From: Meiothermus sp.
GTDB taxonomy: Bacteria > Deinococcota > Deinococci > Deinococcales > Thermaceae
Length of the DNA: 64,000 nucleotides
NCBI GenBank assembly: GCA_026004095.1
Contig: BPIL01000003.1
Coordinates: forward strand, 1-64,000
Direction of reading: 5' to 3'
Shown in pieces: positions 33,801 to 35,421 of the stretch. A program made the position numbers and the translations under genes. Numbering within the stretch: the first letter of the stretch is position 1; each line of letters starts with the position of its first letter. The notes under the pieces were generated by a model. The model was not told where the DNA came from. It searched no databases and worked only from the letters and a program-made list of their open reading frames with translations.

Positions 33801-33832
33801 CCCTTTGGAGTCCTAATCGAGGAGACGCAGGG

Positions 33833-33960
33833 ATGATAGACGGCCTCGAGCGAATCCAAGCCCGCAACCGACTGCTGCTGGAAGAGATGCGCCAGGAGGC
33901 TCCGCGGTTCATCGGGCTGCTCGAGGCCCAGGTCACCACCCTGCGCACCCTTGATATGCA
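33833..33960 (+). other. Possible truncated 5' remnant of a small helical protein gene
   Basis: GGAGACGCAGGGATG start context and coding-like MIDGLERIQARNRLLLEEMRQEAPRFIGLLEAQVTTLRTL; GC content and coding character are lost after about 33960. Confidence 0.35.
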
Positions 33961-34046
33961 AAATGCATCAAGCTTAGAGCAACCTTGGCCGAAGCATGGT
34001 TGGACGAGCGTGTCGGACCATTTGTTCTGCTGCTCCGTGAACCCCT

Positions 34047-34613
34047 TTAGCGAAGTAGAACTACAAGGTAAGGAAATAGCGTACCGCCCAGGTTTGCCCC
34101 GGAGTGCGCGGCCGCTGCGGCAAAATACCCGTACTTGCGGTACAGCAACCCGGCAAGCACACCAAAGAGCAGGGCGAATAGAAAACCAGGCCAACCTTTC
34201 AGTACATGCATCAGACCAAAAAACAGGCTGCTTATCGCCAATGCAACCGGGAAACCCATGCGGTTCATAAGGTTTTTGAGCATTATTTCGCGCATAAAGT
34301 ATTCTTCAAATAACGGCACGTAGATCATCAGCCGCAAAAGCGGCCAAGGCTCGAGCCGGGCCTCCAGCATTCTTCGGTGTTCTGCTTCTGGAATAGTGAA
34401 GTCGATGGTTAGAAGGTGGGGTATGGTGTAGGCGAGACCAAGCAGGAATGCCAGCGCTAGCTCCCTGGGCCGGGCTTGATGGAAAAAGAGAGACCGACGG
34501 TTAAGCAGTCGCTGTACTACCGTTATGACAATAACGGCCAGAAACAGATCGTTGCTTGTAACAGTCATACGATTGGAGCGGTTCGGCGGGCACGTGCTGT
34601 CCCACCGAACCAC
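34047..34613 (-). CDS. CPBP family glutamic-type intramembrane protease
   Basis: Three CPBP motifs present: EEYFMR (EExxxR), FGLMH (FxxxH), HSGAN (HxxxN/B) within TM segments. Confidence 0.88.
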   Translation of the reverse strand: MVRWDSTCPPNRSNRMTVTSNDLFLAVIVITVVQRLLNRRSLFFHQARPRELALAFLLGLAYTIPHLLTIDFTIPEAEHRRMLEARLEPWPLLRLMIYVPLFEEYFMREIMLKNLMNRMGFPVALAISSLFFGLMHVLKGWPGFLFALLFGVLAGLLYRKYGYFAAAAAHSGANLGGTLFPYLVVLLR

Positions 34614-34620
34614 CAGCGGC

Positions 34621-34971
34621 TTAGTAACCCATGCGCTCGCCAGCTCGATAAAGGTTGTGGGCCATTTGTTCCTGCGAGATCATGTAGGAGCTGCCCGGAG
34701 TTGCCCTGAACGTATACAGGCTATAGTCAACATCATGCAATCCAGTATGTGGTGAAGTCAGATTGCAGCAGCGGATGGTAATCGAACCATCGCCCCAAAC
34801 AAACGAATGTGTAGGGGGTGTATCCACCCTGACACTCGAGCGCGCGCCGTCAGCGGTCTCGAACCAGGTATACCTGTCGCCTGTCTCGGGGTTCACCGTA
34901 CTGTTCCACGAACCACCCTGGCCACCGTGGATTTGTTCGAGGTTCGTCGGTGGAATCTCAATCAACCTCAT
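34621..34971 (-). CDS. Putative double-glycine leader precursor protein (116 aa)
   Basis: MRLIEIPPTNLEQIHGG|QGGSWNST...: I(-12), L(-7), I(-4), G(-2), G(-1) of class II/C39 type leaders; GAGGAGGG SD 8 nt before ATG; 7 nt upstream of CPBP ORF. Confidence 0.65.
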   Translation of the reverse strand: MRLIEIPPTNLEQIHGGQGGSWNSTVNPETGDRYTWFETADGARSSVRVDTPPTHSFVWGDGSITIRCCNLTSPHTGLHDVDYSLYTFRATPGSSYMISQEQMAHNLYRAGERMGY

Positions 34972-35421
34972 CTTTTTACCCTCCTCTTTCACGCTTTATC
35001 CTGCTTGCTCGTTCTTCCTCAGCCAAAAATTCACTGCTGTGGTGCTACAGTACCCGCCCGTGCGGGCGGCATTGCCCCCTTCCTGTACAACAGGAGGCTA
35101 GTAAACCTCCAAAGAAAATGGAAGTGAAAAGTTACCGGTTTTGGAACCTGGGATTTTAATATTTCGTCAAGTTCCCGTGCAGGTAAGTGCTGGCCCTCAG
35201 GCTTTTATCACGAAGAGCACAACAACCTGTAGAGTCTGTTGGGGGAAGTAGCGAATGAAGCGCAGCGGGGATAGGTTGTTGAGATGTAAAAGGTTGAGGA
35301 GCACATCGTGGAAATACATCAGCCCAGCCGCCCCCTTGCGGCTGCGGCAAGCATCTTCACCAAATCTTCGCATGGCATACACCAAACATTGGATATCCTG
35401 GGAGAAACTCAAAGGGTGAAT

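Follow-up and report, generated by a model that had tools for sequence, protein, structure and literature searches.

A double-glycine (GG) leader protein and the CPBP membrane protein encoded directly after it in Meiothermus sp. are probably one dispersed cassette of a multi-cassette system centred on a complete peptidase-containing C39-ABC transporter (PCAT), in which the transporter would cleave and export a bacteriocin-like cargo in trans while the CPBP protein would provide immunity. The leader type, the one-to-one pairing with CPBP genes, a C39 transporter with intact motifs, a repeat array and a DNA footprint of that array are established by the sequence itself, and from them cleavage in trans by PCAT, killing activity and immunity are predicted. 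The window, by which we mean the whole analysed stretch of 64,000 nt, contains the pair as follows.

34621..34971, minus strand: GG-leader cargo ORF of 116 aa, made up of the 17-aa leader MRLIEIPPTNLEQIHGG and a 99-aa core with one CC pair
34921..34971, minus strand: double-glycine (GG) leader of 17 aa, of the same length as 11 other leaders and first in profile rank
34047..34613, minus strand: CPBP (Abi/Rce1-like) membrane protein of 188 aa, the probable immunity partner, recognised by PF02517 and its motifs

The cargo starts with MRLIEIPPTNLEQIHGG followed by QGGSW, and the Shine-Dalgarno sequence GAGGAGGG is located just 5' of its ATG. With I at -12, L at -7 and I at -4 ahead of the GG, it has the short leader, the hydrophobic residues at -12/-7/-4 and the GG end of a GG-leader precursor. 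The ORF, its Shine-Dalgarno sequence and these leader residues had been named in the original prediction and were all verified. The description of a core of about 99 aa with a CC pair and no recognised family was also borne out, as RCCN is present in the core and the curated bacteriocin families of Pfam and NCBIfam gave no match to it; the core shows no resemblance to any known bacteriocin. A PDB sequence search with the cargo returned no credible match, sequence searches gave sub-threshold matches at E 0.01-0.1, and the single-sequence AlphaFold model was poor (pLDDT 39.9).

The downstream protein matches PF02517 (E 2.7e-18, 66.5 bits for a cut-off of 22.4) and contains EEYFMR, FGLMH and HSGAN, corresponding to EExxxR, FxxxH and HxxxN, so that its earlier assignment as a CPBP ORF with all three catalytic motifs stands. 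The reported 7-nt gap between the two genes holds for a GTG start at 34613 but not for an equally plausible in-frame ATG at 34568, which lies 45 nt further in and is also 5' of the first hydrophobic segment. Compared with the JDVT/Synerg/VPEID-CTERM CPBP proteases (MrtJ and others), the protein scored 31.2 bits, below the curated NCBIfam cut-offs of 75 and similar values. Its single-sequence AlphaFold model was poor as well (pLDDT 55.7). The window genome, which is 84% complete, has only two PF02517 matches, both of them after GG ORFs. Copies of the pair were sought in 120 relatives and in 111 genomes from the order and were found only in Meiothermus ruber DSM 1279 (G016), with 99% identity for the cargo and 98% for the CPBP protein; beyond the genus, no cargo relatives were detected in plasmids, phages, GTDB contigs, IMG/VR or the 111 genomes. 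Between the window genome and M. ruber, the CPBP gene has a dS of 0.048 and a dN of 0.010, which indicates that it is under constraint, and the cargo shows one change in total, which is too few to judge constraint.

The original prediction had noted that no C39 domain was visible and had proposed an undescribed maturation system without one. This is correct for the surroundings of the pair but not for the genome: PF03412 (C39) matched a 701-aa frame at G000:C3:184993 (E 4.0e-39), on the window's own contig and about 150 kb from the pair, so the cargo's own genome encodes a C39 peptidase/transporter. The C39 active-site motifs DCGPAC, NHYVV and ADP are intact, and the closest solved structure by sequence is PCAT 4ry2, which matched over the full length (E 1.4e-95). 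The proposal of maturation without C39 is therefore not supported; in addition, a 21-mer that is confined to the cassette array of this transporter and the stretch upstream of the window pair ties the two together (see below). The locus in the window genome (G000) is ordered PCAT, HlyD-type adaptor, LuxR-like gene, GG-leader ORF (MKVKELSVRETAGVFGG) and a gene for a protein of roughly 312 aa with CPBP motifs, and the same locus in G008 carries three GG-ORF/CPBP pairs (118+254, 96+241 and 91+266 aa). Scores of the Meiothermus PCAT against the named export families of NCBIfam remained below their cut-offs. Two further observations concern related genes. Another C39-like protein (L067, around 3.7-4.3 kb; L069, 4162-4791), which apparently has a signal peptide, is 209 aa long in M. 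ruber, whereas a stop breaks its reading frame in the window genome; its neighbours contain ELSDEEL-x-E-x-EG segments. In G053, a proline-rich GG-leader ORF (MIRELNVQEALETVGG) precedes a PCAT, HlyD and TolC-like set (L081, 7767-7931).

The GG-protein/CPBP pairing proved to be recurrent. The 111 genomes were scanned with a DNA pattern of the 17-aa leader, and examination of the ATG matches resembling these leaders yielded three cassettes in G006, one in G003 and three in Calidithermus roseus (G018). One of the G006 cassettes is beside an rpoB/rpoC-like pair, away from any array, the G003 cassette is preceded by another CPBP gene, and none of those in G018 shares a contig with PCAT. Counting the window cargo, the examined set comprises 12 distinct GG ORFs, all of them long (91-118 aa), and excludes a few further ATG pattern matches such as G006:C2:65321 and those in G058, G061 and G074. 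Directly downstream of every one of the 12, where the gene for an Abi-type immunity protein is expected, a membrane protein with CPBP motifs (EExxR/EExxxR, F/WxxxH and HxxxN) is encoded. PF02517 recognises nine of these partners at E<=0.014; the remaining three share about 30-44% identity among themselves or with members of the nine. The link between GG protein and CPBP protein that had been suggested for one locus in the window is thus found 12 times in Thermaceae. The leader is 17 aa long in the window cargo and in all 11 PCAT-linked or scattered cassettes. Exceptions to the pattern are an ORF with a 16-aa leader (MVRELSDVELEHTSGG), which has a 122-aa three-helix protein as its neighbour, and a short, repeated GG ORF of 54 aa that lacks a CPBP partner.

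A search with leader profiles, together with the family search of the core, had been suggested as a check on the prediction. With a profile built exclusively from five GG ORFs of the distant PCAT locus, the cargo start scored 13.8 bits and ranked first among the 3518 candidate starts that the window contains (0.6 for the runner-up), and it remained first when the GG columns were removed. With a profile of 11 leaders, it was first with the GG columns and not first without them. This divergence of the window leader within the set, and a core unrelated to the other cores, would fit a coincidental GG leader beside an unrelated resident CPBP gene. We consider such a coincidence very improbable, given the profile rank, the arrangement with a downstream CPBP gene that is the same as in the 11 other cassettes and, above all, the exclusive 21-mer, which contradicts it.

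Array cargos group in the same way as their CPBP proteins, with G008a/G003a/G006a together and G006b/G008b joined by the G018 set; for G006b and G008b, the cargos are 57% and the CPBP proteins 31% identical. The window pair stands apart from these groups. For cargo and CPBP protein alike, its nearest relative is the Calidithermus pair G018a, with z values over shuffles of 5.4 and 5.3, each the best of 11 comparisons, while the window core without its leader showed no significant relatedness to the other cores. The window CPBP protein has the canonical EExxxR as motif 1, whereas the other 11 of the 12 have EExxR (often EExxRxG), in which the spacing between glutamates and arginine is one residue shorter than usual (L064, L066, L133-L137). 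The window CPBP protein is therefore not an ordinary sister of the other partners. As a separate observation, different genomes have cargo C-terminal ends in common (L066/L134, ...DRPYWDPYGISEREGEKYS.GKAF; L066/L136, ...MDG.EIR.GDPYDR), the latter joining otherwise rather different cores; judged by these ends, the cargos are possibly modular.

The connection between the window pair and the PCAT locus is written in the repeats. In G008, the cassettes follow direct repeats that are 260 and 139 nt long and combine the 3' end of luxR with the 54-aa GG ORF; such repeats are also present in the window genome and in M. ruber. One more feature of the window belongs to this family.

35120..35146, minus strand: footprint of the repeat found in the PCAT array (3' end of luxR), oriented like the cargo and about 150 nt 5' of it

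An exact 22-nt piece of the array repeat is found here at 35121-35142. Allowing at most one mismatch, the repeat 21-mer occurs ten times in 18 genomes of the genus: eight occurrences are in PCAT arrays, and the remaining two are upstream of the window-type cassette, once each in the window genome and in M. ruber. Since the 21-mer is confined to the arrays and the position upstream of the window-type pair, the cassette descends from, or has recombined with, the array. The array itself looks like a recombination-driven cassette collection. Repeat arrays in front of GG/CPBP cassettes beside PCAT were observed at L066 (10559-16598), L064 (10455-13703) and L065 (10457-10821). A CPBP-like protein without a cargo ORF and without the EE..R motif 1 is encoded near the array (L065, 12982-13569, PF02517 E 1.1e-4 for this copy; L138, 3898-4566) and is a possible orphan immunity gene.

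Instead of being toxins, the cargos could serve as exported signals or as surface proteins, with the CPBP protein aiding their release from, or turnover in, the membrane. The LuxR-type gene adjoining HlyD is in line with this, as are cores that are large for class II bacteriocins, but highly variable cassettes that are flanked by repeats and each have a single membrane partner, together with partners that occur alone, resemble toxin-immunity repertoires, and we rate this explanation as quite unlikely.

Two features describe the insertion site of the window pair.

33959..35343, no strand: inserted low-GC segment with approximate borders, 51-54% GC compared with about 65%, in the gap between a TolC-like and a MacA-like gene
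33833..33958, plus strand: 5' part (MIDGLERIQARNRLLLEEM...) of a small conserved gene that is truncated next to the insert and has intact versions elsewhere

The pair is within this insert of about 1.4 kb. Intact versions of the MIDGLERIQARNRLLLEEM... gene, of 53 and 75 aa, are present in G008 and G009. The MacA-like gene was found in all 18 genomes of the genus, and it adjoins the TolC-like gene in all five other genomes that place both, including M. ruber. Elsewhere the gap, which spans 33801-35350 in the window and was compared at L038-L042, is empty (G011) or holds a type IV restriction-like enzyme (G008), a 234-aa ORF (G009) or an unpaired CPBP gene (G002). Because its contents vary in this way, we regard the gap as a variable site of small size, and no evidence of function can be drawn from the exporter genes on its flanks. 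The adjacent TolC/MacAB genes were considered as exporter of the cargo and set aside, as they are present whatever fills the gap. No inverted repeats that could represent transposon ends were found around the insert, and defence-system models did not match the pair. The window pair seems to be a stray unit that split off from a larger set of its kind, located beside the matching export pump elsewhere in the genome of this hot-spring bacterium.

Cleavage after GG is an activity of C39 domains, and the GG is their signature. In the preferred reading, the 17-aa leader would direct the precursor to PCAT, whose C39 domain would cut after the GG, and PCAT with its HlyD adaptor would export the core of about 99 aa. 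The CPBP protein, made together with the cargo, would protect the producer from the core in the manner of Abi-type immunity, probably via its glutamate/histidine site. It had been left open at first whether the CPBP protein processes the cargo or protects against it; one diverged CPBP protein per cargo, together with lone CPBP genes, points to immunity and fits protection better than a shared GG processing function. CPBP-mediated GG cleavage is unlikely. The broader idea that each CPBP protein matures its own precursor, by the GG cut or a second cut, is one that we hold to be unlikely, albeit with several points in its favour: the active-site motifs are kept in all 12 partners, the pairing is strictly one to one, SagE and SilX have been proposed as peptide processors (PMC9298176), and cassettes are present in G003 and G006, in which no C39 gene was found. 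Set against these are the intact-motif C39 transporter of the window genome beside a cassette array, the GG as a C39 signature, and the persistence near cassettes of cargo-less CPBP genes, as would be expected of immunity genes. G006 still has the HlyD and LuxR genes, and the lack of a detected C39 gene in G003 and G006 may reflect loss, assembly gaps or CPBP-based processing. A combined scheme, in which repeat-driven shuffling in Thermaceae maintains a GG-protein repertoire and each CPBP protein protects and, where the C39 transporter is missing, replaces C39 in maturing its cargo, seems improbable to us.

If PCAT-dependent export with CPBP immunity is correct, Meiothermus and Calidithermus have a bacteriocin-like arsenal, for which no report was found in the literature searched. 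The 12 natural cargo/CPBP pairs would offer a test bed for the role of bacteriocin-linked CPBP proteins (immunity, processing or receptor), and the repeat array a model for the gain, shuffling and scattering of cassettes.

GG leader, transporter and Abi-type immunity are all of known kinds, and it is the repertoire in Deinococcota that appears to be undescribed. The leaders are close to the Gram-negative motif M[R/K]ELx3E[I/L]x2[I/V]xG[G/A], which, in the form quoted in PMC9200625, is two residues shorter. PCAT1-type C39-ABC transporters (PDB 4ry2) match the Meiothermus protein over the full length and have the C39 active-site motifs as well, but the Meiothermus gene belongs to a diderm host and has a gene for an HlyD adaptor next to it. 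Two systems provide counter-examples to the preferred reading. Caulobacter CdzABCDI also comprises type I secreted bacteriocin proteins, a diderm host, a membrane immunity protein and a nearby CaaX protease gene, but its cores are glycine zippers, its immunity protein is CdzI, and the CaaX gene is dispensable for killing (PMC5380434); production, but not immunity, depended on SilX, the CAAX protease of a bacteriocin locus (PMC9298176). Moraxella catarrhalis mcbABCI shows the same gene order, with a diderm host, an HlyD-like protein, an ABC exporter, a GG-leader bacteriocin of 77-101 aa and, right after it, a tested immunity gene; it is a single cassette, and the portion of that report consulted mentions neither a repeat array nor scattered cassettes (PMC2761928). 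For the CPBP partners, the closest parallels are SkkI, PlnI and PlnL, the Abi-family immunity proteins described in PMC8538875 with reference to Kjos 2010. Sakacin 23K/SkkI, plantaricin EF/PlnI and plantaricin JK/PlnL likewise combine a bacteriocin precursor with a CPBP/Abi membrane immunity protein, in that account in Gram-positive lactic acid bacteria and with short peptides (PMC8538875), whereas the Deinococcota cores are 74-101 aa long and 11 of their 12 partners have EExxR.
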